From the NCBI RefSeq assembly GCF_004768545.1, contig NZ_CP038634.1:1860001-1924000 (forward strand): 64,000 bases of DNA, written 5' to 3'. Under the pieces are notes generated by a model. It did no database searches. It saw only the letters and a program-made list of their open reading frames with translations, and was not told the DNA's origin. The position numbers and the translations under genes were made by a program. Positions 46,595 through 61,290 of this stretch are shown here, piece after piece; the stretch's first letter is position 1, and every line of letters begins with the position of its first letter. This stretch comes from Cupriavidus oxalaticus. GTDB lineage: Bacteria > Pseudomonadota > Gammaproteobacteria > Burkholderiales > Burkholderiaceae.

Positions 46595-47173
46595 CTACCA
46601 GTTTCCTTCCGTTTTTCCGTCTTGTAATCGTCTTTGTGGTCCGGGCCGCTGCGATGGCGCCCGGGTTTCAGGGCAGGCTTGTTATTGGCAGGGTGTTCTC
46701 CTCTTGTGGATCCCGCAGGCTGTCAAAAGCCGCAGTGTCTAGCAAAAATGCTGCCATAGCCGCTTTTGTGTTTTATATATGGAACATCAAACAACATAAG
46801 AAACGTTGAGCAAAATATAGCCGCGAGTTTCCAAAAGCTGTGAGGAGGGTTATCCCTAGTGCGGCAAGGCGACGACGCGCCGGACAGCCGCTGGCTGCAC
46901 CCGCGCAGGGCCGGGCGTGCGCACGGGCGGTGCATCGGCACTGCGCGGCGCGCGCCACCGGCGGCCCGGTCGCCCAGGCGTCTTGCCGCACCGGCAAAGG
47001 CGCTGCGCCGGATGCCATGGGCCAAGGCCTGCCGCACCCTGCAAACCGGCGCGTGCACCAGGCCGGCGCGTTGACGTTTCCGTGTCGGATAGGCCTATCG
47101 TTTACCCTCATCCCGTTTCCCGAGGCGCACGCCTATGCTTCAAAAGTTTTATTCGCAAACCTAAGTTTTATAT
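46595..47173. other. Divergent control region, porin / alpha-beta hydrolase
   Basis: 579 bp without a supported gene. It has two AT-rich ends, each containing one copy of the 17-bp sequence GTTTTATATATGGAACA (46770 and 47165), around a GC-rich core at about 46860-47090. This is the control region for two divergent units. Confidence 0.75.
46770..46785. promoter_or_regulatory. Candidate operator, copy 1 (porin side)
   Basis: GTTTTATATATGGAAC, an imperfect palindrome GTTYYATATATRRAAC, identical to copy 2 including the next base. On the minus strand it overlaps a TATATA box that could be the porin -10 element. Confidence 0.65.
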
Positions 47174-47180
47174 ATGGAAC
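47165..47180. promoter_or_regulatory. Candidate operator, copy 2 (hydrolase side)
   Basis: Same 16-bp GTTTTATATATGGAAC. It covers the annotated ATG of the hydrolase at 47174, so a protein bound here would block the initiation region directly. Confidence 0.65.
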
Positions 47181-48061
47181 AAAATCAGCCCCCCATTCCT
47201 CCTCAGCCGGATCGGCAGCTACTGGAGGCCCTGAGCAGCGGGTTTGCGGAACGCGTGGTGACGGTCGACCGCGGTGCGCAGGTGACCTACCGCAGCGGCG
47301 GGACCAGCGGGCCCGCCATCGTGCTGCTGCACGGCATCAGCTCCGGCGCGGCCTCGTGGCTGCCTTGCGCCAGCCTGCTGGCGGCGCAGGCGCGCGTGAT
47401 CGCCTGGGACGCGCCGGGTTATGGCAACTCGACGCCGCTGGCGCAGGCGCGCCCGCTGGCATCGGACTACGCGCTGCGGCTCGATGGCTTGCTGCAGACG
47501 CTGGGCATGCAGCCGGCGCTGATCGTCGGCCATTCGCTGGGTGCGCTGATGGCCGCGGCCTATGTCGCGAACGCGCGCAACCTGCCGGCGCGGCTGTTGC
47601 TGCTGAGCGTGGCGCAGGGCTATGGCGCGGCGGGCAAGGAGGCGCAGGCGCAGCAGGTGGCCCAGCAGCGGCTGGCGGCGCTGGATACGCTTGGCGTTGA
47701 AGGGCTGGCGCAACGCGGGCCGGCCCGGCTGCTGAGCGAGCTGGCCGATGCCGGCGCGCAGGCGTGGGTGCAGTGGAATATGCAGCGGCTCAACCCGGAC
47801 GGCTATCGCCAGGCGGTGGCGATGCTGTGCGGCGACGATATCGACCGTTATCTGTCGCGCCGTCCGGCGTCACTGCCCACGCGCATTGCCTGCGGCAGCC
47901 GCGACGTGGTGACCACCCCGCTGGCCTGCGGCACGCTGGCCGAACGCTTCGACCTGCCGCTGGCGCTCATCCCCGACGCCGGCCATGCCTGCTACATCGA
48001 GCAGGCCGCCGCGACCGCGCGGCTGATCCGCTCGGCGCTGCCGCCCCAAGGCGACGCCTGA
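47174..48061 (+). CDS. Alpha/beta hydrolase
   Basis: 295-residue alpha/beta-hydrolase. VLLHGISSGAASW oxyanion region, nucleophile elbow GHSLG with Ser121, and catalytic His271 in AGHACYIEQ; Asp expected in CGSRDVVTTP. The fold and length suit a C-C bond hydrolase (meta-cleavage product hydrolase type) or an esterase/lactonase. The ATG at 47174 lies within a candidate operator and lacks a Shine-Dalgarno sequence; a tandem GTG around 47260, just before VTVDRGAQVTYRSGG, is a possible true start, or the transcript is leaderless. It is divergent from the porin and precedes the Rieske operon by 240 bp; likely function is hydrolysis of a ring-fission product or substrate ester of that route. Confidence 0.87.
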   Translation: MEQNQPPIPPQPDRQLLEALSSGFAERVVTVDRGAQVTYRSGGTSGPAIVLLHGISSGAASWLPCASLLAAQARVIAWDAPGYGNSTPLAQARPLASDYALRLDGLLQTLGMQPALIVGHSLGALMAAAYVANARNLPARLLLLSVAQGYGAAGKEAQAQQVAQQRLAALDTLGVEGLAQRGPARLLSELADAGAQAWVQWNMQRLNPDGYRQAVAMLCGDDIDRYLSRRPASLPTRIACGSRDVVTTPLACGTLAERFDLPLALIPDAGHACYIEQAAATARLIRSALPPQGDA

Positions 48062-48166
48062 CCCTACCCGGCGCCGCCAGCCGCTTGGCGCCGCTCCCTT
48101 GGCGCGCCGCTTGCGCCACCTGGCTCCGGCTTCGCGGGTTTACCCCAGTCAATTTTTACGGTTGTG

Positions 48167-48195
48167 TTGTCTATAGTCGTACCTGTGTTCAATAT
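48167..48195 (+). promoter_or_regulatory. Putative sigma-70 promoter of the Rieske operon
   Basis: TTGTCT (48167-48172), 17-bp spacer, CAATAT (48190-48195). The predicted start, about 48202, coincides with the next palindrome. Confidence 0.5.
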
Positions 48196-48203
48196 CTAAA
48201 CCA

Positions 48204-48223
48204 GTGTTTCATTAGTAAAACAC
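48204..48223. promoter_or_regulatory. Candidate operator, copy 3 (Rieske operon)
   Basis: GTGTTTCATTAGTAAAACAC, arms GTGTTT/AAACAC. Read on the other strand it agrees with copy 4 at 17 of 20 positions. Placed at the predicted +1 of the operon, a usual repressor position. Confidence 0.7.
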
Positions 48224-48301
48224 GACGGGCGCAAAAGCAGGTCGCGCCCGGGCGGCGTCGGAACACGGTCCCCCAAGCTGCAAGACATGGAGCAAAGCGC
48301 A

Positions 48302-48607
48302 ATGGAAAGCCTCTCGTACAACCCGAACCTGGTGCCCTGGGAGCGTCCGGCGCCGAACAACGTCGCAGGCAAGGGCCATATCGAACAACCCGGCAAGGTT
48401 GCCAACATTGTCTGGCAGACCCGCGCCACCGCGCCGAGCGCCTACGAGAACGCGCTGGGCGACGCGCTTGAGGCCGCCTTCGAAGGCGGCGCGCAGAACC
48501 CGCAGGACATCGTGCGCGCGTTCAACGCCGCCGGCTTCCTGGGCGTCGACGGCCAGCCATGGACCGAAGAGCGCTTCCTCTCCGAAATGCGCCGCCTGGG
48601 CGCCTGA
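48302..48607 (+). CDS. Small protein with recombinase-like helix-turn-helix
   Basis: 101-residue protein, first gene of the Rieske operon. Start at 48302 has GGAG upstream; an in-frame ATG at 48287 would add five residues. Begins MESLSYNPNLVPWERPAPNN; the C-terminal 60 residues are helical, ENALGDALEAAFEGGAQNPQ then DIVRAFNAAGFLGVDGQPWT and EERFLSEMRRLGA, resembling the short recombinase-type HTH proteins that accompany Rieske oxygenase genes in Burkholderiales. It carries no recombinase catalytic domain. It might modulate the oxygenase or its expression; this is a guess from context. Confidence 0.78.
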   Translation: MESLSYNPNLVPWERPAPNNVAGKGHIEQPGKVANIVWQTRATAPSAYENALGDALEAAFEGGAQNPQDIVRAFNAAGFLGVDGQPWTEERFLSEMRRLGA

Positions 48608-48641
48608 ACCGCGTCCGCATCGCGACCATAGCGAGAACAAC

Positions 48642-49712
48642 ATGGAATCGAACAAGCAAGCCCGCGCCGAAGCCCGCCTGAACACCGGCCTGCGCAACTA
48701 CTGGTACCCGGTCGCCGCCTCGTGGGCGGTGAGCCATGCCCCGATCGGCATCACCCGCCTGAGCCAGAACATCGTGCTGTGGCGCGACGGCGCCGGCCAG
48801 GTCCACGCGCTGGAAGACCGCTGCCCGCATCGCGGCGCGCGCCTGTCGATGGGCTGGAACCTGGGCGACCGCGTCGCCTGCTGGTACCACGGCGTGGAAG
48901 TCGGCGGCGACGGCCAGGTCAAGAGCGTGCCGGCGGTGGAAAGCTGCCCGCTGGAAGGCCGCACCTGCGTGCGCAGCTACCCGGTGCAGGAAAAGGCCGG
49001 CGCGATCTTCCTGTGGTTCGGCGACCAGGCCCCGCAGGGCGAAGGCAGCCCCGACGAGCTGCGCCTGCCGGAAGAACTGGTCAGCGAAGAACACAGCAAC
49101 TTCCTGTGCGTGGCGCACTGGGACTGCAATTACCGCTACGCCATCGACAACGTGATGGACCCGATGCACGGCGCCTACCTGCACGCGGTGTCGCACTCGA
49201 TGGCATCCGGCGAGAAGTCCGCCGTGATGCAGATCCGCGAGACCGAGCACGGCCTGGTGTTCGAGAAGACCGGCCAGCGCGGCGTCAACTTCGACTGGGT
49301 GGAGTTCGGCGAGACCGGCACGCTGTGGCTGCGCCTGGCGATCCCGTACCGCGCCAAGGTCGGCCCCGGCGGCCCGTTCGGCATCGTCGGCATGGCCACG
49401 CCGGTGGATGAAGACCACTGCATGGTGTTCTTCTGGCGCACCCGCCACGTGCAGGGCTGGGAGCGCGACGTGTGGCGCTTCCTGTATCGCAACCGCCTGG
49501 AGCAGCTGCACTGGGACGTGCTGGAGCAGGACCGCGTGGTGCTGGAAATGATGGCCCCCAACGCACGCGACCACGAGATGCTGTACCAGCACGACGCCGG
49601 CATCACGCGCGTGCGCCGTCTGCTGAAGCGCCGCGCCGACCAGGAAATCGCCGACGAGCCGGTGGCGATGCTCAAGCCCACGCAAGCCGCCGGAGCCGCC
49701 AGCCATGCCTGA
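48642..49712 (+). CDS. Rieske non-haem iron oxygenase, alpha subunit
   Basis: 356-residue terminal oxygenase. Rieske 2Fe-2S ligands C-x-H-x16-C-x2-H at Cys61, His63, Cys80, His83. Catalytic mononuclear Fe motif NVMDPMHGAYLH gives Asn170/Asp173, His176 and His181, the standard N/D-x2-H-x4-H arrangement. Length and form (start LNTGLRNYWYPVAASWAVSH) resemble VanA/phthalate oxygenase-like one-subunit oxygenases served by a VanB/PDR reductase, and that reductase is present at 57805. It could hydroxylate, dihydroxylate or O-demethylate an aromatic acid. Start at 48642, 34 bp after the small HTH protein; its TGA overlaps the next ATG by 8 bp. Confidence 0.93.
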   Translation: MESNKQARAEARLNTGLRNYWYPVAASWAVSHAPIGITRLSQNIVLWRDGAGQVHALEDRCPHRGARLSMGWNLGDRVACWYHGVEVGGDGQVKSVPAVESCPLEGRTCVRSYPVQEKAGAIFLWFGDQAPQGEGSPDELRLPEELVSEEHSNFLCVAHWDCNYRYAIDNVMDPMHGAYLHAVSHSMASGEKSAVMQIRETEHGLVFEKTGQRGVNFDWVEFGETGTLWLRLAIPYRAKVGPGGPFGIVGMATPVDEDHCMVFFWRTRHVQGWERDVWRFLYRNRLEQLHWDVLEQDRVVLEMMAPNARDHEMLYQHDAGITRVRRLLKRRADQEIADEPVAMLKPTQAAGAASHA

Positions 49713-50478
49713 GGCCATCACCAACAACGCTCTGCTGGCCGGCCGCAAGGTGCTGGTCACCGGCGCCGCACGCGGCCTCGGGCTGGCCTTCGCGAAGTCG
49801 CTGGCGGAAGCCGGCGCCAGCGTGGCCATGGCCGACATCCTGGCCGAACGCCTGCAGCAGGAAGCCGATGCGCTGCGCGCCCGCGGCCTGAAGGTGGTGC
49901 CGGTCCTGCTGGACCTGTCGGACCCCGCCTCGGTGCAGGCTTGCGCCGATGCCGCGGTGAAGGCACTGGGCGGCCTCGACGGGCTGGTCAACAACGCCGC
50001 CGTGACCGACTCGGGCGGCCGCGATGCCAGCGCCATCGACATCGCCACCTGGGACCGCGTGATGAATGTCAACGTGCGCGGCACCTGGCTGATGACTTCC
50101 GCCTGCCTGCCGGCGCTGCGCGCCAGCGGCCGTGGCGCGGTGGTCAACCTGGCCTCGGACACGCCGCTGTGGGGCGCGCCCAACCTGCTCGCCTATGTGG
50201 CCAGCAAGAGCGCCATCATCGGCATGACCCGTTCGCTGGCGCGCGAGCTGGGCCGCGACCAGATCACTGTCAACGCGGTGGCCCCGGGCCTGACGCTGGT
50301 GGAAGCCACCGAGTACGTGCCCCAGCACCGGCACGACCTGTACCGCGAGCAACGCGCGATCTCGCGCGAGCAGCTGCCCGACGATGTCTGCGGCGCGGTG
50401 CTGTTCGCACTGTCCGACCTTGCCCGTTTCGTGACCGGCCAGACGCTGGCGGTCAACGGCGGCTTTGTCATGCATTGA
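49705..50478 (+). CDS. Short-chain dehydrogenase/reductase
   Basis: 257-residue SDR with intact motifs: TGAARGLG, NNAA, NLASD with Ser, and YVASK (Tyr164, Lys168); ends with the family tail QTLAVNGGFVMH. It overlaps the oxygenase stop by 8 bp and is thus translationally coupled. In a Rieske dioxygenase route this position would suit a cis-dihydrodiol dehydrogenase that rearomatises the ring; oxidation of another alcohol is also possible. NAD(P)-dependent and cytoplasmic. Confidence 0.9.
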   Translation: MPEAITNNALLAGRKVLVTGAARGLGLAFAKSLAEAGASVAMADILAERLQQEADALRARGLKVVPVLLDLSDPASVQACADAAVKALGGLDGLVNNAAVTDSGGRDASAIDIATWDRVMNVNVRGTWLMTSACLPALRASGRGAVVNLASDTPLWGAPNLLAYVASKSAIIGMTRSLARELGRDQITVNAVAPGLTLVEATEYVPQHRHDLYREQRAISREQLPDDVCGAVLFALSDLARFVTGQTLAVNGGFVMH

Positions 50479-50513
50479 TCCGAAATCCACTGAAGAAAAC
50501 CGAAGGAATCCAA

Positions 50514-51050
50514 ATGAGCGATCTTTCCCAACAGCAAAACATCAAGCGTTCCTGGGACCAGCCGGACGGCGCCTCGTTCGACCAGTGGATGGAAAGCCGC
50601 GTGGCGCGCTTCTCCACGCGCAAGTACGACTGGGACGCGCTGAAGTTCCAGGCCGACTACGACCCCAAGTACCGCCGCGCGCAGATGCGCTACCTGGGCA
50701 CCGGCGGCACCGGCGTGGCCGCGGACACCAACACCGTGCCGTCGGAGCACTTCACCTTCTCCACCATGATCATCCCGGCCGGCCATGAAGGCCCGTCGCA
50801 TATCCACACCGACGTGGAAGAGGTGTTCTTCGTCCTGCGCGGCAAGATCAAGCTGATCCTGGAAAAGGATGGCGAGCGCTTCGAGACCGTCCTGACCGAC
50901 CGCGACCTGGTCTCGGTGCCGCCGGGCGTGTATCGCGAGGAAATCAATATCGGCGAGGAAGACGCGCTGATGTGCGTGATGCTCGGCGCCAAGAAGCCGG
51001 TCACGCCGACCTACCCGCCCGAGCACCCGCTCGCGAAGATCAAGCGCTGA
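50514..51050 (+). CDS. Cupin domain-containing protein
   Basis: 178-residue single-cupin protein. Motif 1 is seen as GPSHIHTDVEEVFFVLRG with metal-ligand candidates His96, His98 and Glu102. Motif 2 reads VPPGVYREEINIGEE: the His expected after P-x-G-x2 is Arg141, so one canonical metal ligand is missing. The N-terminal 60 residues are charged and not cupin-like. In catabolic clusters such proteins act as dioxygenases, isomerases or ligand sensors; which applies is unknown. Start at 50514 follows GAAGGAATCCAA. Confidence 0.85.
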   Translation: MSDLSQQQNIKRSWDQPDGASFDQWMESRVARFSTRKYDWDALKFQADYDPKYRRAQMRYLGTGGTGVAADTNTVPSEHFTFSTMIIPAGHEGPSHIHTDVEEVFFVLRGKIKLILEKDGERFETVLTDRDLVSVPPGVYREEINIGEEDALMCVMLGAKKPVTPTYPPEHPLAKIKR

Positions 51051-51081
51051 TGCGCCATCGGCCTGTTCGCACGCACTGACC

Positions 51082-51933
51082 ATGAGCACCAACGCCATCC
51101 CGACGACGCCAGCCGCCAACGAAACCCCGGACAAGTACATCGTCCCGGGCCTGGAGCGCGGGCTGCGCCTGCTCGGCGAGTTCAGCAGCAAGGACCGCAC
51201 CATGTCGGCCGCCGAACTGGCGCGCCGCCTGAAGGTGCCGCGCTCCACCGTGTTCCGCCTGCTGGCCACGCTGGAAATGCTGGGTTTTGTCGAGCGCGCC
51301 GATGGCGGCCGCGATTTCCGGCTGGGCATGGCGGTGCTGCGGCTGGGGTTCGAGTACCTGGCGTCGCTGGAGCTGACCGAACTGGGCCGCCCGCTGCTGG
51401 AGCGGCTGCGCGACGAGATCGGCTATCCGACCAACCTGGTGGTGCGCGACGGGCGTTCGATCGTCTACGTGGCCAAGGCGGTGTCGCCGCGGCCCTTCGC
51501 CAGCTCGGTCAACGTCGGCACGCGGCTGCCCGCGCATGCCACGGTGCTGGGCCGGGTGCTGCTGGAAGACCTGCCGCTGGCGGAACTGCACGCGCTGTAT
51601 CCGGAGGCGCAGCTGGAAGTGTTCTCAGACAGCACGCCGCGCACGGTCGATGCGCTCTTTGCCATCGTCCAGCGCGACCGCGAGCGTGGCTACGTGCTGC
51701 AGGAAGGCTTTTTCGAATCGAGCATCTCGACCATTGCCGCGCCGGTGCGCGACCGCACCGGCAAGGTGGTGGCGGCGCTGGGCGCCACCATCCCCGCTGC
51801 GCATATCGATCCGGAACAGCTGGACGCGATGGTGGAGAAGGTGAGGAGCACAGCGGGCGAGCTGTCGCGCCTGCTTGACTACCGGCTGTCGCTGCACAGC
51901 GCCGGCAAGGTCGTGAATCTGTATCGGGAGTGA
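51082..51933 (+). CDS. IclR family transcriptional regulator
   Basis: 283-residue IclR-type regulator with N-terminal winged helix-turn-helix (MSAAELARRLKVPRSTVFRL, LATLEMLGFVERADGGRDFR) and the C-terminal effector domain (GYPTNLVVRDGRSIVYVAKA, GTRLPAHATVLGRVLLED, GYVLQEGFFESSISTIAAPV). IclR proteins often control aromatic-acid catabolism and bind palindromes of about 15 bp with AT-rich centres. It is embedded inside the operon, an autoregulated arrangement. It is one candidate for binding the GTTTTAnnnATRRAAC sites at 46770, 47165, 48206 and 61273. Confidence 0.92.
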   Translation: MSTNAIPTTPAANETPDKYIVPGLERGLRLLGEFSSKDRTMSAAELARRLKVPRSTVFRLLATLEMLGFVERADGGRDFRLGMAVLRLGFEYLASLELTELGRPLLERLRDEIGYPTNLVVRDGRSIVYVAKAVSPRPFASSVNVGTRLPAHATVLGRVLLEDLPLAELHALYPEAQLEVFSDSTPRTVDALFAIVQRDRERGYVLQEGFFESSISTIAAPVRDRTGKVVAALGATIPAAHIDPEQLDAMVEKVRSTAGELSRLLDYRLSLHSAGKVVNLYRE

Positions 51934-51938
51934 GGACA

Positions 51939-52742
51939 ATGTCCATGATTGAACTCGGCGGCAAGGTTGCCGTCGTTACCGGCGGGTCCTCCGGCATCGG
52001 GCTGGCGACCGTCGAACTGCTGCTCGAAGCGGGCGCCGCCGTCGCCATGTGCGGCCGCGACGAAGCCCGCCTGCGCAGCGCCGAAGCGCAGTTGCGCGAG
52101 AAATTCCCCGGGTGCCGGCTCCATGCCGCCACCTGCGACGTGCTCAAGCCGGAACAGGTCGCCGCCTTCGCGGCCGACGTGCAGCAGAAGCTCGGCAATG
52201 TCGACATGCTGGTCAACAACGCCGGCCAGGGCCGCGTGTCCACCTTCGCCAATACCGAAGACGCGGCCTGGATGGACGAACTGCAGCTCAAGTTCTTCTC
52301 GGTGATCCACCCGACGCGCGCCTTCCTGCCGCAGCTGGAGAAGTCGGGCCAGGGCGCGATCGTCTGCGTCAACTCGCTGCTGGCGCAACAGCCCGAGCCG
52401 CACATGGTGGCGACCTCCGCCGCGCGCGCCGGCGTGCTGAACCTGGTGCGCTCGATGGCCACCGAGTTCGCGCCCAAGGGTGTCCGCGTCAACGGCATCC
52501 TGATCGGGCTGGTCGAATCGGGCCAGTGGCGCCGCCGCTTCGAGGCGCGTCCTGAAGCAGACCGCCACCTGGACTGGGCCGCGTGGACCGCGCGCCTGGC
52601 CCAGCAGAAACATATTCCCCTTGGCCGCCTGGGCCTGCCCGTCGAGGCAGCCCGCGCCATCCTGTTCCTTGCCTCGCCGTTGTCTTCGTACACCACGGGC
52701 AGCCATATCGATATCTCCGGAGGACACTCCCGTCATGCCTAA
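51939..52742 (+). CDS. SDR-fold protein with altered active site
   Basis: 267-residue SDR. Cofactor motif TGGSSGIG and NNAG are normal, but where the catalytic YxxxK is expected the sequence reads TSAAR (Thr159, Arg163), and Ser of CVNS remains. The same change is known from a subgroup of SDRs, so it may be ancestral rather than damage, but it argues against a standard dehydrogenase mechanism. Starts at 51939 or 51945, with GGAGTGAGG upstream. Its stop overlaps the start of the ThDP gene by 8 bp (52735-52742). Function unknown; a reductase, lyase or structural partner of the ThDP enzyme is conceivable. Confidence 0.87.
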   Translation: MSMIELGGKVAVVTGGSSGIGLATVELLLEAGAAVAMCGRDEARLRSAEAQLREKFPGCRLHAATCDVLKPEQVAAFAADVQQKLGNVDMLVNNAGQGRVSTFANTEDAAWMDELQLKFFSVIHPTRAFLPQLEKSGQGAIVCVNSLLAQQPEPHMVATSAARAGVLNLVRSMATEFAPKGVRVNGILIGLVESGQWRRRFEARPEADRHLDWAAWTARLAQQKHIPLGRLGLPVEAARAILFLASPLSSYTTGSHIDISGGHSRHA

Positions 52743-54444
52743 TCAACACCAGTACGAACAACAGCAGGTCACCGTCGGCTGCGCCATCACGGCGTTTCTC
52801 GAGCAGTGCGGGGTCAAGGCCGCGTTCGGCGTGATCTCGATCCACAACATGCCGATCCTCGACGCCATGGGCGAGCGCGGCCACATCCGCTTCGTGCCGG
52901 CACGCGGCGAAGCGGGCGGCACCAACATGGCCGACGCCTACGCCCGCACCACCGGCGGCCTGGGCGTGTGCCTGACCAGCACCGGCACCGCCGCGGGCAA
53001 TGCCGCCGGCGCCATGGTCGAAGCGCTGACCGCCGGCACGCCGATGCTGCATATCACCGGCCAGATCGAGACGCCGTACCTGGACCAGAACCTGGCCTAC
53101 ATCCACGAAGCGCCGGACCAGCTCACCATGCTGAAGGCCGTGTCGAAGGCCGCCTTCCGCATCCGCAGCGCCGACACCGCGATCAGCACCATCAAGCTGG
53201 CGGTGCAGACCGCGCTGACGGCGCCGACCGGCCCGGTCAGCGTGGAGATCCCCATCGACATACAGGCCGCGCTGATCGACCTGCCGGCCGACCTGCAGCC
53301 GCTGCCGGTGCCTAAGCATGTGCCGTCGGCGCACGCGCTGGACGCGCTGGCCGAGCGCCTGGTGAATGCCAAACGCCCGCTGCTGTGGCTGGGCGGCGGT
53401 GCCCGCCACGCCAGCAAGCAGGTGCAGCGCCTGCTGGACCTGGGCTTCGGCGTGGTCACCAGCACGCAAGGCCGCGGCATCGTGGCGGAAGACGATCCGC
53501 GCTCGCTGGGCGCCTACAACCTGCACAAGCCGGTCGAGGCCTTTTACCAGACCTGCGACGCGATGCTGGTGGTGGGCTCGCGCCTGCGCGGCAATGAAAC
53601 GCTGAAGTACGAACTGAAGCTGCCGCGCCCGCTGCTGCGCATCGACGCCGATCCCGCCGCCGAAGGCCGCTGCTACCAGAGCGATTACTTTGTCAGCGGC
53701 GATGCCGCGCTGGCGCTGGACGCGCTCGCAGACCGGCTCGAAAAGCGCATGAATGTCGATCCGGCCTTCGCCGCCGACCTGCGCCGCGCGCATGACGTCG
53801 CCGTCAACGGCCTGGTCGATGGCCTGGGCCCGTACTCGGCACTGGTGCAGGCGCTGCAAGGCGCAGTCGGCCGCAACTTCAACTGGGTGCGCGACGTGAC
53901 CGTGTCGAACAGCACCTGGGGCAATCGCGAACTGCGCATCTTCGACTCGCGCGCCGGCGTGCATGCGCTGGGCGGCGGCATTGGCCAGGGCCTGGCCATG
54001 GGCATCGGCGCCGCGATCGGCGCGGCGGCCACCGCGTCGGGCAAGAAGACCTTCACGCTGGCCGGCGACGGCGGCTTCATCCTGAACCTGGGTGAGCTGG
54101 CGACTGCCGTGCAGGAACGTGCCGACATGGTCATCGTGCTGATGAACGACAAGGGCTACGGCGTGATCAAGAACATCCAGGACGCGCAGTACGGCGGCCG
54201 CCGCCACTACGTCGACCTGCATACGCCCGACTACGCCGCGCTGGCCAGGTCGCTGTCGCTGCGCCATGCGCGCGTCAGCAGCCTGGCCGAAGTCGGCGCC
54301 GCGCTGGAGCAGGCCACGGTGGAGCCCGGCCCGTTCCTGCTGGAAATCGACATGCTGTCGATCGGCAGCTTCAAGACCGTGTTTGCCGGCCCGCCGGTGA
54401 ACAAGGAAACCCCGGCTTCGGAACAGGCCACCGTCAGCGCCTGA
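52735..54444 (+). CDS. Thiamine diphosphate-dependent enzyme (acetolactate synthase/decarboxylase-like)
   Basis: 569-residue three-domain ThDP enzyme. Pyr-domain catalytic Glu59 in PARGEAGGTNMADAYAR; central transhydrogenase-like domain (LLWLGGGARHASKQVQRLLD); PP-domain ThDP-Mg motif GDGGF at Gly444-Asp445 with Asn471 in LMNDKGYGVIK. Such enzymes decarboxylate 2-oxo acids or join C-C bonds. FAD-binding cannot be judged. In the operon it lies after the atypical SDR and before the aspartate-dehydrogenase-like gene. A benzoylformate- or oxo-acid-decarboxylase-like role, giving an aldehyde for the neighbouring aldehyde dehydrogenase, is a sensible inference but unproven. Confidence 0.9.
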   Translation: MPNQHQYEQQQVTVGCAITAFLEQCGVKAAFGVISIHNMPILDAMGERGHIRFVPARGEAGGTNMADAYARTTGGLGVCLTSTGTAAGNAAGAMVEALTAGTPMLHITGQIETPYLDQNLAYIHEAPDQLTMLKAVSKAAFRIRSADTAISTIKLAVQTALTAPTGPVSVEIPIDIQAALIDLPADLQPLPVPKHVPSAHALDALAERLVNAKRPLLWLGGGARHASKQVQRLLDLGFGVVTSTQGRGIVAEDDPRSLGAYNLHKPVEAFYQTCDAMLVVGSRLRGNETLKYELKLPRPLLRIDADPAAEGRCYQSDYFVSGDAALALDALADRLEKRMNVDPAFAADLRRAHDVAVNGLVDGLGPYSALVQALQGAVGRNFNWVRDVTVSNSTWGNRELRIFDSRAGVHALGGGIGQGLAMGIGAAIGAAATASGKKTFTLAGDGGFILNLGELATAVQERADMVIVLMNDKGYGVIKNIQDAQYGGRRHYVDLHTPDYAALARSLSLRHARVSSLAEVGAALEQATVEPGPFLLEIDMLSIGSFKTVFAGPPVNKETPASEQATVSA

Positions 54445-54457
54445 GGAGAGCAGAAAA

Positions 54458-55258
54458 ATGCTGCATGTGTCCATGATTGGGTGCGGTGCGATCGGCCGGG
54501 GCGTGCTTGAGCTGCTCAAGAGCGATCCCGACGTCGCCTTCGACGTGGTGATCGTGCCCGAGAGCGCGATGGACGAGGCCCGCGGCGCGCTGTCCGCGCT
54601 GGCGCCCAGCGCCCGCGTGGCCACGCACCTTGACGACCAGCGCCCCGACCTGCTGGTCGAGTGCGCCGGCCACCATGCGCTGGAAGAGCACATCGTGCCG
54701 GCGCTGGAGCGCGGCATCCCGTGCATGGTGGTGTCGGTGGGCGCGCTGTCCGAGCCCGGCATGGCCGAGCGGCTGGAAGCGGCGGCACGCCGTGGCGGCA
54801 CGCAGGTGCAGCTGCTGTCCGGTGCCATCGGCGCCATCGACGCGCTGGCCGCGGCGCGCGTCGGCGGGCTGGATGAAGTGATCTACACCGGCCGCAAGCC
54901 GGCGCGCGCCTGGGCTGGCACCCCGGCCGAGAAGCTGTTCGACCTGGATGCGCTGACCGAGGCGACGGTGATCTTCGAAGGCACGGCGCGCGACGCCGCG
55001 CGCCTGTACCCGAAGAACGCCAACGTCGCCGCCACGGTGTCGCTGGCCGGCCTCGGGCTGGATCGCACTGCGGTGAAGCTGCTGGCCGATCCGCATGCGG
55101 TGGAGAACGTGCATCACGTGGAAGCGCGCGGGGCGTTTGGCGGGTTCGAGCTGACGATGCGGGGCAAGCCGCTGGCGGCGAATCCGAAGACGTCGGCGCT
55201 GACGGTGTTCAGCGTGGTGCGGGCGCTGGGCAACCGCGCGCATGCGGTATCGATCTAG
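54458..55258 (+). CDS. Aspartate dehydrogenase-like protein (NadX family)
   Basis: 266-residue NAD(P)-dependent protein of the L-aspartate dehydrogenase family. N-terminal Rossmann motif SMIGCGAIGRGVLELL; centre GAIGAIDALAAARVGGLDEV; family signature YPKNANVAATVSLAGLGLDR. Known family members convert L-aspartate to iminoaspartate or oxaloacetate, for NAD synthesis or nitrogen metabolism. No nadA or nadC is nearby, and it is buried in a catabolic operon (13 bp after the ThDP gene), so its substrate may be a ring-cleavage-derived amino or oxo dicarboxylate. Confidence 0.88.
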   Translation: MLHVSMIGCGAIGRGVLELLKSDPDVAFDVVIVPESAMDEARGALSALAPSARVATHLDDQRPDLLVECAGHHALEEHIVPALERGIPCMVVSVGALSEPGMAERLEAAARRGGTQVQLLSGAIGAIDALAAARVGGLDEVIYTGRKPARAWAGTPAEKLFDLDALTEATVIFEGTARDAARLYPKNANVAATVSLAGLGLDRTAVKLLADPHAVENVHHVEARGAFGGFELTMRGKPLAANPKTSALTVFSVVRALGNRAHAVSI

Positions 55259-55297
55259 TTCCGGCAGCCACGCCCCACAGACTTAGCAGGCAACGAC

Positions 55298-56776
55298 ATG
55301 AACCCACAAGAAGTCCTCCCCATCTGCATCGCCGGCGAATGGCGCCTCGGCACGGGCGACCGCTACGGCACGCGCTATCCGGCGACCGGCGAGGTCGTCG
55401 CAGAACTGAATGCCGCCAGCCCGGCTGACGTGGAAGAAGCCGTGCAGGGCGCGCACCATGCCTTCCTTACCAGCGGCTGGGCCCAGCGCAAGCCGCACGA
55501 GCGTGCCGCTGTGCTGTACCGCGTGGCCGAACTGATCCGCGCACAAGCCGAGCCGCTGGCACAACGGCAGCGCCTGGACAACGGCAAGCCCATCAGCGAA
55601 ACGCGCGCCCTGGTCGCCAGCGCAGCCGGCACCTTCCAGTTCTTTGCCGCCGCCTGCGAAACGCTGGAAGAAACCATCACGCCGCAGCGCGGCGACTGCC
55701 TGACCATGAGCGTCTACGAGCCGATGGGCGTGGTCGCGGCGATCACGCCGTGGAACTCGCCGATCGCCAGCGAGGCGCAGAAGATGGCCCCCGCGCTCGC
55801 CGCCGGCAATGCCGTGGTGGTCAAGCCGGCCGAAGTCACGCCGCTGATGGCACTGGAACTGGCGCGCATTTGCGAAGAAGCCGGCGTGCCCAAGGGCCTG
55901 ATCAGCGTGCTGCCGGGCAAGGGCTCGGTGATCGGTGATGCCATCACCAAGCATCCGCTGGTGCGGCGCGTGTCGTTCACCGGCGGCACTACCACCGGCA
56001 AGCACATCGCGCATATCGCCGCCGACAAGATGATGCCGGTGTCGCTGGAGCTGGGCGGCAAGTCGCCGACCATGGTGTTCGACGACGCGGACCTCGACCA
56101 CGCGGTCAACGGCGTGCTGTACGGCATTTTCAGCTCGTCGGGCGAGTCGTGCATCGCCGGCTCGCGCCTGTTCGTCGCGCGTTCGCAGTATGAGCCGTTC
56201 ATCGACCGCCTGGCGGCCGCCGCTTCGCACCTGCGCGTTGGCGACCCCGCCGATGAACGTACCCAGATGGGCCCCCTGATCACCGACCGCCACCGCGACA
56301 GCATCGAATCGTACGTCGCGACCGGCGTGCACGAAGGCGGCCAGCTGCGCACCGGCGGCGTGCGTCCCGACGTGGCCGGCCTGCCCAACGGCTACTTCTA
56401 CACGCCCACCATCATCGAAGGCCTGGATAACAACGCCCGCATCTGCCAGGAAGAGATTTTCGGGCCGGTGCTGGTGGCGATCCCGTTCGACGACGAGGAC
56501 GACCTGATCGGACAGGCCAACGACAGCGTCTACGCGCTGGCCGCCGGCATCTGGACGCGCGACTACAAGCGCGCCTGGCGCGTGGCCCGTGCGGTGCAGG
56601 CGGGCAATGTGTGGATCAACACCTACAAGCAGTTCTCGATCTCGACGCCGTTCGGCGGCTGGCGCGACAGCGGCCTGGGCCGCGAGAAGGGACGGCTGGG
56701 CATCCTGCAGTACATGGAGCAGAAAAGCGTGTACTGGGGCCTGAACGAACAACCGCTGCCGTGGGCCAGCCACTGA
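55298..56776 (+). CDS. Aldehyde dehydrogenase
   Basis: 492-residue NAD(P)-dependent aldehyde dehydrogenase with catalytic Glu251 in LELGGKSP and Cys285 in SGESCIAGSR; cofactor region ITPWNSPIASEAQKMAPALA and GKGSVIGDAI. C-terminal marks FGPVLVAIPFDDEDDLIGQA and NVWINTYKQFSISTPFGGWR. Similar to hydroxymuconic-semialdehyde, betaine-aldehyde and related dehydrogenases. In this operon it may oxidise an aldehyde from the ThDP enzyme or a ring-fission semialdehyde. Starts at 55298. Confidence 0.93.
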   Translation: MNPQEVLPICIAGEWRLGTGDRYGTRYPATGEVVAELNAASPADVEEAVQGAHHAFLTSGWAQRKPHERAAVLYRVAELIRAQAEPLAQRQRLDNGKPISETRALVASAAGTFQFFAAACETLEETITPQRGDCLTMSVYEPMGVVAAITPWNSPIASEAQKMAPALAAGNAVVVKPAEVTPLMALELARICEEAGVPKGLISVLPGKGSVIGDAITKHPLVRRVSFTGGTTTGKHIAHIAADKMMPVSLELGGKSPTMVFDDADLDHAVNGVLYGIFSSSGESCIAGSRLFVARSQYEPFIDRLAAAASHLRVGDPADERTQMGPLITDRHRDSIESYVATGVHEGGQLRTGGVRPDVAGLPNGYFYTPTIIEGLDNNARICQEEIFGPVLVAIPFDDEDDLIGQANDSVYALAAGIWTRDYKRAWRVARAVQAGNVWINTYKQFSISTPFGGWRDSGLGREKGRLGILQYMEQKSVYWGLNEQPLPWASH

Positions 56777-56799
56777 GCCCGGCAGGCAGGAGAGAAGCA

Positions 56800-57774
56800 A
56801 TGATCAAGGTATTGGGAATCGACGAGATCGTCTACGGCGCGGATGACTTTGACGCCTGCCGTGGCTTTTTCTCGGACTGGGGCCTGGCCATCAAGCGCGA
56901 TGACGCGCAGGGCCTGGACTTCGAAACGCTGAACGGCTGCCGCGTGCTGGTGCGCCGCATCGACGATGCTTCGCTGCCGCCTGCGATCGAGGCCGGCCCG
57001 ACGCTGCGCGAAGTGGTGTGGGGCGTCGAGTCGCAGGCATCGCTCGACCATCTGGCTGACGCGATCGCCGATGCGCCGGGCTTCGTGAAGCAAGGCGAAG
57101 GCGCCACGCTGCGCATCGGCTGCACCGACCCGAACGGCCTGGCGGTGCGCTTCCAGGTCACGCGCAAGCATGACGTGCAGGTCGAATGCGCGCTGATGAA
57201 TACGTGGAACGACAAGCCGCGCCTGAACCAGCGCAGCCCGATCTACGACCACGCCACGCCGATCGAAGTCGGCCACGTGGTGTTCTTCGTGAAGGACGTC
57301 AAGGCCACCGAGCAGTTCTATGTGGAGAAGTTCGGCTTCGTGCCGTCGGACCGCTACCCGGACCGCGGCGCGTTCCTGCGCTGCACCGCGGATGGCGGCC
57401 ACCACGACCTGTTCCTGCTACAGCTGCCGGAACCGAAGAGCGGCCTGAACCACGTCGCCTTCACCGTGCGCGACATCCATGAAGTCTTCGGCGGCGGCAT
57501 GCATGTCTCGCGCAAGGGCTGGGACACGCAGCTCGGCCCGGGCCGGCATCCGATTTCCTCGGCCTACTTCTGGTACTTCAAGAACCCGGCCGGCGGCCTG
57601 ATCGAATACTACGCCGATGAAGACCAGCTCGACGAGCACTGGGAGCCGCGCGCCTTCGAGCCGGGTCCGACCATGTTCGCCGAATGGGCGATCGAGGGCG
57701 GCATCGACGGCAACACCCGCCGCCAGAAGAACGCAGGCGGCCCGGCAGGCAAGTTCCTGACCGAGAAGCGGTAA
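56800..57774 (+). CDS. VOC-family extradiol dioxygenase-like protein
   Basis: 324-residue two-module VOC protein, the length of type I extradiol dioxygenases (catechol 2,3-dioxygenase class). The first module has no obvious metal ligands; the second carries the 2-His-1-carboxylate triad: His159 (GHVVFFVKD), His218 (LNHVAFTVRD) and Glu269 (GGLIEYYADED). That arrangement supports Fe-dependent meta-cleavage of a catecholic ring. Starts at 56800 after AGGCAGGAGAGAAGC. It stands between the aldehyde dehydrogenase and the Rieske reductase, consistent with ring cleavage after Rieske and SDR steps and with the alpha/beta hydrolase at 47174 as the next enzyme. The ring substrate is unknown. Confidence 0.88.
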   Translation: MIKVLGIDEIVYGADDFDACRGFFSDWGLAIKRDDAQGLDFETLNGCRVLVRRIDDASLPPAIEAGPTLREVVWGVESQASLDHLADAIADAPGFVKQGEGATLRIGCTDPNGLAVRFQVTRKHDVQVECALMNTWNDKPRLNQRSPIYDHATPIEVGHVVFFVKDVKATEQFYVEKFGFVPSDRYPDRGAFLRCTADGGHHDLFLLQLPEPKSGLNHVAFTVRDIHEVFGGGMHVSRKGWDTQLGPGRHPISSAYFWYFKNPAGGLIEYYADEDQLDEHWEPRAFEPGPTMFAEWAIEGGIDGNTRRQKNAGGPAGKFLTEKR

Positions 57775-57804
57775 GAGAGAGAAGCGCGACAGAAGGAAGC
57801 AGCA

Positions 57805-58761
57805 ATGAGTGCCCACCAGTCCCTGACCCTGCGCGTCCAGGCCATGCGTTTTGAAGCGCGCGGCGTGGTCAGCATCGAACTCCAAGATCCCGAAGGCAAG
57901 ACCCTGCCCGAGTACAGCCCGGGCGCCCATATCGACCTGCACCTGGGCAATGGCCTGGTGCGCAGCTACTCGCTGTGCGGCGCGCCGGAAGCGCGCAACC
58001 GCTACACCGTGGGCGTGCTGCTGGACCGCGGCAGCCGCGGCGGCTCGCGCTACGTGCATGAGCAGCTGCGCGTGGGTGCCACGCTGACGGTGGGTGCGCC
58101 GCGCAACAACTTCGAGCTGGACGAGAGCGCCGCGCATACCGTGCTGGTGGCCGGCGGCATCGGCGTCACGCCGATCGTCTGCATGGCGCGCCGGCTGGCG
58201 GAGCTGGGCAAGTCGTTCACGCTGATCTACTGCGCCCGTTCGCGCGCCGAGGCGGCATTCGTCGAACCGCTGTCGGCCTATGGCGATGCGGTGCGCTTCC
58301 ACTTCGACGACGAAGCGGGCGCGCCGCCGGACCTGAAGGCGATGCTGGGCGGACAGGACGCGCAGACGCATTTCTATTGCTGCGGCCCGGGCCCGATGCT
58401 GAATGCGTTCGAGGCCGCATGCGAGGCGCATGCCTACCCCAATGTCCATATCGAGCGCTTTGCCGCCGACCCGTCGACCGAGGCGGTGCAGGAGGGCGAA
58501 TACGTGGTGCAGCTGTCGCGCACCGGCTCGCTGGTCAAGGTGCCGTCGGGCAAGTCGCTGCTCGATGCGCTGCTCGATTCCGGCGTGGAGGTCGAGTACA
58601 GCTGCCGCGAAGGCGTGTGCGGCTCGTGCGAAACCGCCGTGCTGGAAGGCTGCCCGGACCACCGCGACAGCGTGCTGAGCAACAGCGAGCGCGCCAGCAA
58701 CAAGACCATGATGGTATGCGTGTCCGGGTGCAAGGGCAGCAAGCTGGTGCTGGACTTGTAA
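57805..58761 (+). CDS. Rieske oxygenase reductase, PDR/VanB type
   Basis: 318-residue oxidoreductase: FMN domain with RSYSL at Arg53-Leu57, NAD domain (VLVAGGIGVTPIVCMARRLA, FYCCGPGPMLNAF), and C-terminal plant-type 2Fe-2S ferredoxin with Cys267, Cys272, Cys275 and Cys305. This order (FMN, NAD, ferredoxin) defines phthalate dioxygenase reductase and VanB. It should pass electrons from NADH to the oxygenase encoded at 48642, 8 kb upstream in the same operon. Starts 30 bp after the VOC gene. Confidence 0.95.
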   Translation: MSAHQSLTLRVQAMRFEARGVVSIELQDPEGKTLPEYSPGAHIDLHLGNGLVRSYSLCGAPEARNRYTVGVLLDRGSRGGSRYVHEQLRVGATLTVGAPRNNFELDESAAHTVLVAGGIGVTPIVCMARRLAELGKSFTLIYCARSRAEAAFVEPLSAYGDAVRFHFDDEAGAPPDLKAMLGGQDAQTHFYCCGPGPMLNAFEAACEAHAYPNVHIERFAADPSTEAVQEGEYVVQLSRTGSLVKVPSGKSLLDALLDSGVEVEYSCREGVCGSCETAVLEGCPDHRDSVLSNSERASNKTMMVCVSGCKGSKLVLDL

Positions 58762-58792
58762 TTCGCGATTGCTCGTTCCGAGAGTGTTTTCG

Positions 58793-58832
58793 CCCCTCTC
58801 CCGCGCGCGGGAGAGGGGCGGGGGAGAGGGCC
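58793..58832. repeat. REP-like palindromic element, left copy
   Basis: A 26-nt near-perfect palindrome (arms CCCCTCTCCCGC) at 58793-58818 followed by a GGGGGAGAGGG tail. Same structure as the right copy, in inverse orientation. Confidence 0.7.
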
Positions 58833-58925
58833 AGCGCTGGCCGCAGCCAGCGCGTTGCCAGGTCCCGATTTCCTCATCCAAGGCCGCCGGGCAAGCCGGG
58901 CGTATGCCGCCTGCAGCGCCTGCCC

Positions 58926-58961
58926 TCTCCCCAAACCCCTCTCCCGCAAGCGGGAGAGGGG
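58926..58961. repeat. REP-like palindromic element, right copy (inverted)
   Basis: CCTCTCCCC then AAA and a 26-nt palindrome (arms CCCCTCTCCCGC, centre AA) at 58936-58961. It is the left copy reversed, so the pair forms a BIME-like unit around about 110 bp in the gap between the reductase and the MFS gene. Confidence 0.7.
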
Positions 58962-58994
58962 AGCAACCCCCGAAGAATCAAACCGAGAAGTACC

Positions 58995-60455
58995 GTGTTC
59001 ACACAGAGACAAGACGCAGCGTCCCCCGGCGCACCGGTGGCCGCCACCGCAGGTATCGTGACCACGGCCGACAGCGCCGGCCAAAGCGCTGCGGCTGCCC
59101 GCAGCGGCCCGGTCACGCGCGGCAACATCGTCGCCCGCATTGAACGCATGCCGGGCAACGCCATGCATATCCGCGCCCGGCTGCTGATCGGCCTGGCCAC
59201 CTTCTTCGACGGCTTCGATGTCATCGCCATTGCCGCCACGCTGCCGCTGCTGATCGCGCAATGGTCGCTGACGCCGGCGCAGATCGGGGTCCTGATCGCC
59301 GCGCCGTCGGTCGGCCAGCTGGTCGGCGCGCTGCTGTTCCCGGGGCTGGCCGAGCGCTTCGGCCGGCTGCGCTCGATCGGCTGGAGCGCGGGCATCATCG
59401 GCCTGATGAGCATTGCCTGCGGCTTCGCGCCGTCGTTCGAGATCTTCCTGCTGCTGCGCATCGTGCAGGGCCTGGGCCTGGGCGGCGAGCTGCCGGTGGC
59501 CGCCACCTATATCAATGAAGTCACACGCGCGCATGGCCGCGGCCGCTTCGTGCTGCTGTACGAGGTGGTGTTCCCGATCGGCCTGATGGTGTCCAACGGC
59601 GTCGGCGCCTGGCTGGTGCCGCACTACGGCTGGGAGGTGATGTACTTCATCGGCGGCGTGCCGCTGGTGCTGTTCTTCATCCTGAAGCGCGTGATCCCGG
59701 AATCGCCGCGCTGGCTGGCCGAGAAGGGCCGCCTGGAAGAAGCCGACGCGGCGCTGCGTGCGTTCGAGGCACGCGCCAGGGGACCGCTGCCGCCGCCGCA
59801 GAATGCCAGCGCCTATGACCGCATGACCCAGCATCCGCGCCGGCGCGTGCGCGACCTGGTCAGCAAGGCCTACCTGGGCCGCACGATCGCGGTGTGGATG
59901 CTGTGGGCAACCTGCGGCTTTATCCAGTACGGCCTGTCGACCTGGCTGCCCACGGTCTACAAGACCGTCTACCACGCGCCGCTGCAGCTGGCGCTGAACC
60001 TGGCCGCGGGCGCCTCGGTGCTGGGCGTGGTCGGCTCGCTGGTGTGCGCGATGATCGTCGACAAGGTCGGCCGCAAGCCGGTGATCAACGTGTCGTTCCT
60101 GCTGTGCGCGCTGTCGCTGGTGCTGGCCGGCGTGTTCCACGCCGCGTCGGTGTATGTGGTGGCGACCTTCTGCGCGCTGGCGATGGGCTTTTTGGCCAGC
60201 GGCTTTATCACCGCCTATGTCTATACGCCCGAGCTGTACCCGACCAGCGTGCGCGCGATGGGCTGCGGCCTGGGCGGCGCCTGGCTGAAACTGGCCGCGA
60301 TCTTCGCGCCGACGCTGATCGCCGGCACCATCGGCAACGGCACCCTCAACGTGGCGTTCTTCGCGCTGGCCGTGGTGCCCGCGCTGGCAGCCGTCACCGT
60401 TCACTTCTTCGGCATCGAGACCAAGGGGCAGGTGCTGGAGGAACTGGAGGTCTGA
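58995..60455 (+). CDS. MFS transporter, aromatic acid:H+ symporter type
   Basis: 486-residue major facilitator with 12 predicted helices. First helix contains the DGFD motif (TFFDGFDVIAIAATLPLLIA) typical of the AAHS family (PcaK/BenK/VanK). Cytoplasmic loop motif LAERFGRLRSIGW and the centre loop (PESPRWLAEKGRLEEADAAL) are canonical. Start assigned to GTG at 58995, because the cytoplasmic N-terminus runs from there; the extension of ~55 residues before the first helix is long, and an ATG at about 59148 remains possible. Last gene of the Rieske operon, separated from the reductase by the repeat pair. It should take up an aromatic or heteroaromatic acid. Confidence 0.9.
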   Translation: MFTQRQDAASPGAPVAATAGIVTTADSAGQSAAAARSGPVTRGNIVARIERMPGNAMHIRARLLIGLATFFDGFDVIAIAATLPLLIAQWSLTPAQIGVLIAAPSVGQLVGALLFPGLAERFGRLRSIGWSAGIIGLMSIACGFAPSFEIFLLLRIVQGLGLGGELPVAATYINEVTRAHGRGRFVLLYEVVFPIGLMVSNGVGAWLVPHYGWEVMYFIGGVPLVLFFILKRVIPESPRWLAEKGRLEEADAALRAFEARARGPLPPPQNASAYDRMTQHPRRRVRDLVSKAYLGRTIAVWMLWATCGFIQYGLSTWLPTVYKTVYHAPLQLALNLAAGASVLGVVGSLVCAMIVDKVGRKPVINVSFLLCALSLVLAGVFHAASVYVVATFCALAMGFLASGFITAYVYTPELYPTSVRAMGCGLGGAWLKLAAIFAPTLIAGTIGNGTLNVAFFALAVVPALAAVTVHFFGIETKGQVLEELEV

Positions 60456-60485
60456 ACGGGCGCGTGCTTGTCCCGTTTATCTTTG

Positions 60486-60521
60486 AAGGCCGCGCCGGGA
60501 TCCGGGGCGGCCTTTTTCTTT
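60486..60521 (+). terminator. Rho-independent terminator of the Rieske operon
   Basis: Stem AAGGCCGC/GCGGCCTT with an inner CCGG-CCGG stem in the loop, followed by TTTTTCTTTT on the plus strand, between the MFS gene and the convergent MarR gene. Confidence 0.8.
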
Positions 60522-60543
60522 TGCTGTGCGACCTGGCGCTGCG

Positions 60544-61059
60544 CTATCCCTGCGCCCGCAGCAGCTTGCGCAGCCCCTGATAAACCGCCTCCCTTTCCTG
60601 CGGCGACAGCATCCGGATCACTTCTGCCTGGCCCTTGCGTGCCAGCGGCATCACCTGGTCGTGCAGCGTCGAGCCGGCCTCGGTGATGGCGCAGATCAGC
60701 TTCTTGCGCGGCGTGTTGCCGGCCGAAGTCAGGCGTACCAGCCCGCGGTCTTCCAGCAGCCGCAGCGTGCGGCTGACCAGCGCCTTGTCCGAGGTCGATT
60801 GCGTGACCAGCTCGGAGAAGGGCAGTTCTTTCGCATGCGCCAGCAGCGCCAGGATGCGCCACTCCGGCACGGTCAGGCCGAACTGCTCGGCGTAGGGCTT
60901 GGTGACGGTGCTGCGCAGCGCGGTCACCAGCTGGCTCAGCATGGTGGTCAGGAAATTGTCGACAGTCAGGCCGTTGCCGGCCTCGTCGAGATCGGTCCAG
61001 GGGCTGGCGGTCAGTTCTGGCGCGGGCTGGCCCTGGGCGGGCGCGGCGTCACGGGGCAT
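60544..61059 (-). CDS. MarR family transcriptional regulator
   Basis: 171-residue MarR-type winged-helix protein: dimerisation helices, HTH LPFSELVTQSTSDKALVSRT then LRLLEDRGLVRL and wing TSAGNTPRKKLICAITEAGS. AGAGGAC precedes the ATG at 61059. It lies divergent from the Bug-molybdenum hydroxylase unit, and the 324-bp space holds copy 4 of the palindrome (61271-61290). MarR repressors of aromatic catabolism bind 16-20 bp AT-rich palindromes in exactly such settings, so this is the leading candidate for the shared operator; the internal IclR is the alternative. Confidence 0.9.
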   Translation of the reverse strand: MPRDAAPAQGQPAPELTASPWTDLDEAGNGLTVDNFLTTMLSQLVTALRSTVTKPYAEQFGLTVPEWRILALLAHAKELPFSELVTQSTSDKALVSRTLRLLEDRGLVRLTSAGNTPRKKLICAITEAGSTLHDQVMPLARKGQAEVIRMLSPQEREAVYQGLRKLLRAQG

Positions 61060-61218
61060 GCGGTCCTCTTGTCTGGGGTCTGCCGGCAGGTTGGTCGGGG
61101 CCGGTGGGCGGGCCAGATTGTCTCACAGGCCGCAGCGAGTCCGGTGCCAATGTCTCGTCATTACCACCAGAAAAAATCAATGAGCGAATATAAAAAGTCA
61201 ATTGGTGTTTTCAGTAAG

Positions 61219-61247
61219 TTGAGTTGTCAATATTTGCCACCTACAGT
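61219..61247 (+). promoter_or_regulatory. Putative sigma-70 promoter of the Bug/molybdenum hydroxylase unit
   Basis: TTGAGT (61219-61224), 17-bp spacer, TACAGT (61242-61247). The palindrome follows at about +17. Confidence 0.45.
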
Positions 61248-61270
61248 AGTCACGTTCCTGATGTGAACAT

Positions 61271-61290
61271 GTGTTTTACCAATAAAACAA
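61271..61290. promoter_or_regulatory. Candidate operator, copy 4 (marR/Bug region)
   Basis: GTGTTTTACCAATAAAACAA, with inner palindrome GTTTTACCAATAAAAC (61273-61288). Closest relative is copy 3 on the opposite strand. Confidence 0.7.

Follow-up and report, generated by a model that had tools for sequence, protein, structure and literature searches.

A paired palindromic operator at four promoters of a catabolic locus in Cupriavidus oxalaticus and its probable control by two paralogous IclR-family proteins

A catabolic locus of Cupriavidus oxalaticus, located in a stretch of 64,000 nucleotides (assembly GCF_004768545.1, contig NZ_CP038634.1, positions 1,860,001 to 1,924,000; hereafter the window), carries four copies of an AT-rich palindrome, which raises the question of whether these copies are operators of a single regulon and which regulatory protein would bind them. 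A preliminary description had placed the 16-mers at 46770, 47165, 48206 and 61273, upstream of four transcription units, and had named either a MarR protein (60544) or an IclR protein (51082) as the expected binder. The reading favoured here, to which a probability of about 0.78 is assigned, is that all four sites serve as operators in a single regulon run by the IclR-family protein encoded at 51082-51933 (IclR1) together with its paralogue IclR2, probably as a repressor.

Four palindromes and their partners

The four 16-mers were recovered at these positions and on the expected strands, and the third and fourth copies, read by eye, indeed agree at 17 of 20 positions. Using the consensus GTTTTANNNATRRAAC, 10 strand-wise matches with at most two mismatches were counted in the window, whose G+C content is 67.3%, versus 0.24 expected, and none of 100 shuffles of the window reached this number, so that the earlier assertion of a non-random origin holds. 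The genome-wide scan proposed in the same place returned five exact matches in 7,968,737 bases, four of which are the window sites. The fifth, at C2:2389945 (L059 3946, G000), is flanked by genes resembling a DeoR-type regulator and an ABC transporter ATPase, as judged from translations only and with no family search; because it has no partner 19 bp away, it is judged to be unrelated to the regulon.

Such a partner accompanies every site in the window in the form of a second, degenerate 16-bp palindrome, which precedes the site by exactly 19 bp in the direction of the gene and leaves 3 bp between the two. The pairs read GTTTCTTATGTTGTTT.GAT.GTTCCATATATAAAAC at 46770 (minus strand), GTTTTATTCGCAAACC.TAA.GTTTTATATATGGAAC at 47146, GTTCAATATCTAAACC.AGT.GTTTCATTAGTAAAAC at 48187 and GTTCCTGATGTGAACA.TGT.GTTTTACCAATAAAAC at 61254. 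A paired pattern drawn up after these four had been seen, GTTY-N15-GTTYNANNNNTNRAAC, has exactly four exact matches in the genome, all of them window sites; with at most one mismatch it gives 6 + 5 matches on the two strands, exact ones included, whereas its reversed control gives 2 + 3. The preliminary description had overlooked three things: the pairing at 19 bp, the second IclR gene and the location of the sites just after the -10 box. Its claim that each site lies upstream of a transcription unit needs one correction, as the copy at 47165 contains the ATG of the hydrolase gene (47174) and is thus not simply upstream of it. Counting the window, there are 16 Cupriavidus loci in which this start codon lies inside the main palindrome (47165-47180), and in none of these 16 is a Shine-Dalgarno sequence evident by eye before the hydrolase start.

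Conservation and promoter position

A single scan with the IclR protein yielded 49 loci, of which 46 (L009-L054; 883,163 bp in total) encode a protein with 72-98% identity and originate from Cupriavidus, Ralstonia, Herbaspirillum, Collimonas, Duganella and other Burkholderiaceae, while three (L055-L057) at 28-30% identity were excluded from the counts on the 46 loci. A scoring matrix built from the four window sites detected 87 sites of at least 20 bits in these loci, a number that includes at least one site counted twice (L010 and L054 overlap on one contig) and that comes in part from many closely related Cupriavidus loci. Column-permuted palindromic matrices, 100 in number, gave 2.0 sites on average (standard deviation 6.8, maximum 52), and none reached 87. 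Such a site is present in 44 of the 46 loci; the two loci devoid of it (L025, L026) end before the Rieske promoter. Chance or base composition as the origin of the four window sites was rejected on the combined grounds of shuffles, genome scan, paired pattern and permuted matrices.

The spacing is conserved as well. When the partner was scored at offsets from 16 to 55 in 46 non-redundant contexts including the window (similar contexts collapsed, as also for the promoter-box counts below, and sites near locus ends excluded), the mean score was +9.5 at 19 bp, the next best being -2.85 at 21, and the partner reached at least 8 bits in 28 of the 46 contexts. Gene maps place the pairs at the porin, hydrolase, HTH62-Rieske, MarR/Bug and IclR2 promoters, which answers the earlier call for conservation at orthologous promoters. 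In Herbaspirillum and Collimonas, sites were additionally found before an SDR operon and, going by translations, before an ABC or MFS transporter. Overall, 19-bp-spaced pairs occur at matching promoters of Cupriavidus, Ralstonia, Herbaspirillum, Collimonas, Klebsiella and Acinetobacter, and in weaker form in Caballeronia. The restriction of the shared operator to the units concerned and its conservation at their orthologous promoters support the proposal that it ties the four units into one system, which would presumably be substrate-controlled. In L107 (8096-10805; G211), the same paired operator precedes molybdenum hydroxylase-like genes that appear from their translations to encode two subunits, while the enzyme of the window genome has three.

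At a greater distance, much of this gene set recurs in public records for Klebsiella pneumoniae (NZ_CP129771), Acinetobacter baumannii (CP040048) and Caballeronia, in each case together with an IclR protein, of 41%, 35% and 56% identity, respectively; their annotations give no pathway name. The best paired match in each stretch of 19-21 kb is promoter-proximal in all three: GTATTAAATAAGAAAC.AGA.GTTTCATATATGAAAC with 33.4 bits in Klebsiella, GTTTTGAAAATCAAAT.TAT.GTTTTGTATATAAAAC with 27.4 bits in Acinetobacter, and matches of 18.9 and 17.9 bits at two divergent promoters in Caballeronia. With equal base frequencies as background, 200 first-order Markov shuffles of each stretch reached at most 18.1, 21.3 and 12.7, so that the best real match lies above all of them. 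In the Klebsiella and Acinetobacter stretches, the gene tables of which may be incomplete, no regulator other than IclR is annotated. Both operons resemble the window locus in their Rieske, SDR, cupin, hydrolase, aspartate dehydrogenase, aldehyde dehydrogenase and VOC genes (known from annotation only), in the IclR gene and in the paired operator at the Rieske/ferredoxin promoter, but differ from it in gene order, in a gene for a ferredoxin subunit and in the low identity of IclR (35-41%).

With respect to the promoters, a TATANT-like box (at least five of six positions) ends 6-9 bp before the pair in 29 instances among 36 non-redundant contexts, compared with 15 hits at all other offsets combined. 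Because of this distance the pair probably covers about +1 to +35, a position that would suit a repressor. A further arrangement was observed in Herbaspirillum and Collimonas, where two operator pairs flank the -10-like box with main copies 82-103 bp apart; DNA looping between them is possible.

The probable regulator and its presumable mode of action

IclR1 is a clear member of its family, scoring 59.1 bits for HTH_IclR (cut-off 22) and 120.9 bits for IclR_C (cut-off 24), and IclR2 likewise exceeds the curated cut-offs for both domains. As to which protein would bind the operator, the distribution of genes across genomes supports the IclR half of the earlier suggestion and disfavours the MarR half. 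The MarR gene, which runs divergently from one of the four sites, was found in 18 of 200 genomes of the family, all of which belong to the window's genus (18 of 22 there). A separate search, covering the genomes of 21 of the 46 loci, revealed an orthologue of at least 68% identity in 11 genomes, exclusively of Cupriavidus, while ten genomes of Ralstonia, Herbaspirillum and Collimonas gave MarR hits of at most 30% and yet all carry sites of at least 20 bits (one of them, L031, was placed with Ralstonia by its site sequences). Likewise, sites are present in 16 family genomes that possess IclR and lack MarR, namely G211 and 15 genomes of genus g24, which was taken as Ralstonia on the basis of an identical site sequence and has no MarR. 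Conversely, G199 has MarR but no IclR and is devoid of sites of this kind. Thirteen regions of family genomes were fetched for reading. In G128 and G152, MarR and the sites are on different contigs: no stretch near MarR scores above 11.9 bits, and the sites remain with IclR2. Cupriavidus pauculus shows the same split, with sites at the Bug and IclR units of L049 and none near MarR at L069, which shares its MarR coordinates with G152 and is probably the same genome. Around relocated (L069/L111, L112) or IclR-less MarR genes, no stretch exceeded 11.9 bits in the 3.5-10 kb that were read. Hence, the sites do not follow the MarR gene across genomes, and MarR was rejected as binder on its distribution and its relocated copies; that it binds the operator is very improbable.

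Even less credible is binding by the product of a third IclR-type gene (C1:1928991), although the window's genome, like L104-L106 and L108, has this gene close to the locus. At E<=1e-40 it was present in two of 14 genomes (once with 75% identity, once with 34% and internal stops), and it was rejected because eight of the ten site-bearing Ralstonia, Herbaspirillum and Collimonas genomes do not have it. By contrast, IclR and the operator go together tightly in two genera: in the window's genus all 18 of the 22 genomes that encode IclR carry a pair with a main copy of at least 20 bits and none of the four lacking IclR does, and in g24 IclR and the pair occupy the same 15 of 16 genomes, the one without IclR having no pair. 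The claim for IclR is founded on these two genera and on the discordant genomes G211, G199, G128 and G152, and the argument as a whole rests mainly on the exclusion of MarR and of the third IclR gene, and on the distant loci. In G180 and G199, two of the four genomes of the window's genus that lack IclR, a different pair (18.6 and 16.8 bits) was found by an aldehyde dehydrogenase gene and another IclR gene (26-28% identity). A comparable arrangement was noticed in L100 (5547), L101 (5062), L102 (4933) and L103 (4726), where another IclR gene (24-29% identity) and an aldehyde dehydrogenase gene are arranged divergently; the DNA between them carries a pair with 19-bp spacing that is centred on GTTCAATCTATTGAAC or on near variants of it.

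Several observations weigh against control by IclR1 and IclR2 or limit its reach. Co-occurrence of sites and IclR is weak and partly trivial evidence for binding, because both share one inherited cluster. The 200 family genomes include 84 with a match to the paired pattern and 53 in which a pair reaches at least 20 bits; 50 of these 53 possess an IclR relative at E<=1e-70, and G138, G155 and G208 do not. Vice versa, 49 of the 99 genomes with such a relative lack a 20-bit pair, all of them outside the two genera, and among the matches listed the IclR relatives of other genera are 52-64% identical; the tight link thus holds for the window's genus and g24, not for every IclR relative. The recognition-helix letters of the Klebsiella and Acinetobacter proteins differ despite similar sites, and none of the three distant loci (L116-L118) matches the strict paired pattern. 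Moreover, the partner is weak (below 8 bits) in 18 of 46 contexts, the IclR2 promoters of L024, L025 and L026 have no recognisable site, and no operator of at least 9 bits stands directly in front of the MFS gene of the window. Finally, the location of the operator after the -10-like box suggests repression but is no proof of it.

The last point bears on the alternative that IclR acts on the double operator as an activator, or switches between both roles, as PobR and PcaU are IclR-type activators. By eye, the Rieske promoter has no good -35 hexamer, a scan of 46400-48400 for sigma-70-type promoters found none (0.3 expected), so that an activator may be needed, and Herbaspirillum and Collimonas place a second pair upstream of the -10-like box. 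Nevertheless, the sole pair at each promoter of the window is located downstream of this box, an unusual place for an activator, and the better candidate activator site would be a GGGTTAACCC-type box that stands apart from the pair, at about -51; activation by IclR is accordingly considered unlikely. From the sites themselves, their pairing, spacing and conservation, their link to IclR and their position after the -10-like box, all of which can be read in the sequence, we infer binding, repression, an inducer and a substrate in the following manner. Two IclR dimers would sit side by side on one DNA face, because the palindrome centres are 19 bp apart, that is, about two helical turns. Bound IclR would then block initiation or early elongation, given that the pair begins 6-9 bp after the -10-like box in most contexts, and a pathway compound would release IclR from the operator. 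Release would open together the uptake genes (porin, Bug), the hydrolase gene, the Rieske operon including iclR, and the operon for Bug, molybdenum hydroxylase and IclR2.

A wider view is tentative and may well be wrong: the 19-bp double palindrome could be an old operator code, common to beta- and gammaproteobacteria, of a clade of IclR repressors that accompany a hitherto undescribed pathway of catabolism (Rieske oxygenase, aspartate dehydrogenase-like protein, thiamine diphosphate (ThDP) enzyme and, in places, molybdenum hydroxylase). Two dimers would bind cooperatively just after the -10 box, the second upstream pair of Herbaspirillum and Collimonas would allow looping, and the Cupriavidus operator would hold the start codon of one of its targets.

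The locus, its minor elements and known systems

The features under consideration are collected in the table. In Cupriavidus, Ralstonia, Klebsiella and Caballeronia alike, a small HTH_62 (PF20552) protein precedes the Rieske oxygenase gene.

Table. Features of the locus in window positions (C1, contig coordinates; L, positions in related loci)
Feature	Position	Strand	Remarks
TctC/Bug substrate-binding protein	44395..45576	-	start of open reading frame uncertain
Porin gene	45500..46594	-	Gram-negative porin, PF13609, domain match
Double operator, porin-Bug unit	46770..46804	-	main palindrome 46770-46785, partner 46789-46804
-10-like box TATATT	46814..46819	-	9 bp before porin-Bug operator
GGGATAACCC box	46847..46856	-	starts 52 bp before porin-Bug operator
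-10-like box TATGCT	47134..47139	+	6 bp before hydrolase operator
Double operator, hydrolase gene	47146..47180	+	partner 47146-47161, main palindrome 47165-47180 holding ATG at 47174
Alpha/beta hydrolase gene	47174..48061	+	
GGGTTTACCCC box	48136..48146	+	starts 51 bp before Rieske operator
-10-like box TATAGT	48172..48177	+	9 bp before Rieske operator
Double operator, Rieske operon	48187..48221	+	partner 48187-48202, main palindrome 48206-48221
Small HTH_62 (PF20552) protein	48302..48607	+	first gene of Rieske operon
Rieske oxygenase	48642..49712	+	VanA/DdmC-like
SDR and cupin genes	49705..51050	+	SDR 49705-50478, cupin 50511-51050
IclR1	51082..51933	+	IclR family, proposed binder
Remainder of operon	51930..58761	+	SDR, ThDP enzyme, aspartate dehydrogenase-like, aldehyde dehydrogenase, VOC/extradiol-type protein, ferredoxin reductase
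MFS transporter	59157..60455	+	start approximate
MarR-family regulator	60544..61059	-	disfavoured as binder
Weak promoter-like pair, by eye	61219..61247	+	TTGAGT 61219-61224, 17 bp, TACAGT 61242-61247
Double operator, Bug/molybdenum hydroxylase/IclR2 unit	61254..61288	+	partner 61254-61269, main palindrome 61273-61288
Bug/TctC protein	61384..62373	+	molybdenum hydroxylase genes and IclR2 follow outside window
IclR2	C1:1927118-1927903		just downstream of window; 82% identical paralogue of IclR1
Third IclR-type gene	C1:1928991		near locus
Loci with flanking operator pairs	L040 4782-4900; L041; L045; L047; L050 5965-6101 and 7570-7705		

Further elements surround the operators. Thirteen of 36 promoter contexts share a GGG-N3..5-CCC box of the GGGTTAACCC type, which starts 49-52 bp ahead of the operator, and boxes of this type were also seen in L018, L019, L024, L028, L042, L106 and L107. 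A search for such a box followed by TATAG at roughly this distance matched the genome twice, at the porin and Rieske promoters, versus three matches for the reversed control, so that the number itself constitutes no evidence. A link between the third IclR gene and this box is not supported: G010 is devoid of the gene, yet the box is present at its locus L028. The promoter-like pair in front of the Bug gene is too weak to pass the cut-off of the promoter scan, in which no promoter is listed for that strand, and its TTGAGT lies inside a conserved palindrome, TTGAGTTGTCAA (61219-61230). The underlying motif TTGA-N4-TCAA has a single instance in the window, and the related loci, 883 kb in all, contain 13. 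As a MarR site TTGAGTTGTCAA is not supported, since it is absent at L069, L111 and L112 and kept at the IclR2 promoter of C. pauculus (L049). In L109 (G199), one TTGA-N4-TCAA was noted about 140 bp upstream of MarR, for which chance and a MarR site are both possible.

What the analysis offers is a precise operator and a likely regulator for a catabolic module that spans soil Burkholderiales to Klebsiella and Acinetobacter. The operator may be used to find uptake and accessory genes of the module in other genomes, and the IclR protein could serve as a sensor to identify its substrate. A gene-order likeness to PA3501-PA3515 of Pseudomonas aeruginosa was considered but not confirmed, the ThDP family being found in none of 14 control genomes.

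Control of aromatic catabolism by IclR-family proteins is well known from PcaR, PcaU, PobR, MhpR and HmgR, which resemble IclR1 in having HTH_IclR and IclR_C domains and a gene within the catabolic operon. In accordance with this, the relatives of IclR1 in the PDB comprise a regulator of the Pca regulon (8eju), an activator of p-hydroxybenzoate hydroxylase (5hpf) and 2xrn, which we take to be TtgV. TtgV is an IclR-family repressor whose long operator is bound by more than one dimer; it shares with the present system the family and the presence of several half-sites under one promoter, and differs from it by controlling an efflux pump. What sets the locus apart from the IclR systems of aromatic catabolism is an operator in which two 16-bp palindromes follow each other with a 19-bp spacing, its use at four promoters and the two paralogous IclR genes. 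Taken together, the locus is, on its sequence, a further and putatively IclR-controlled system of aromatic catabolism, distinguished by a well-defined double operator.

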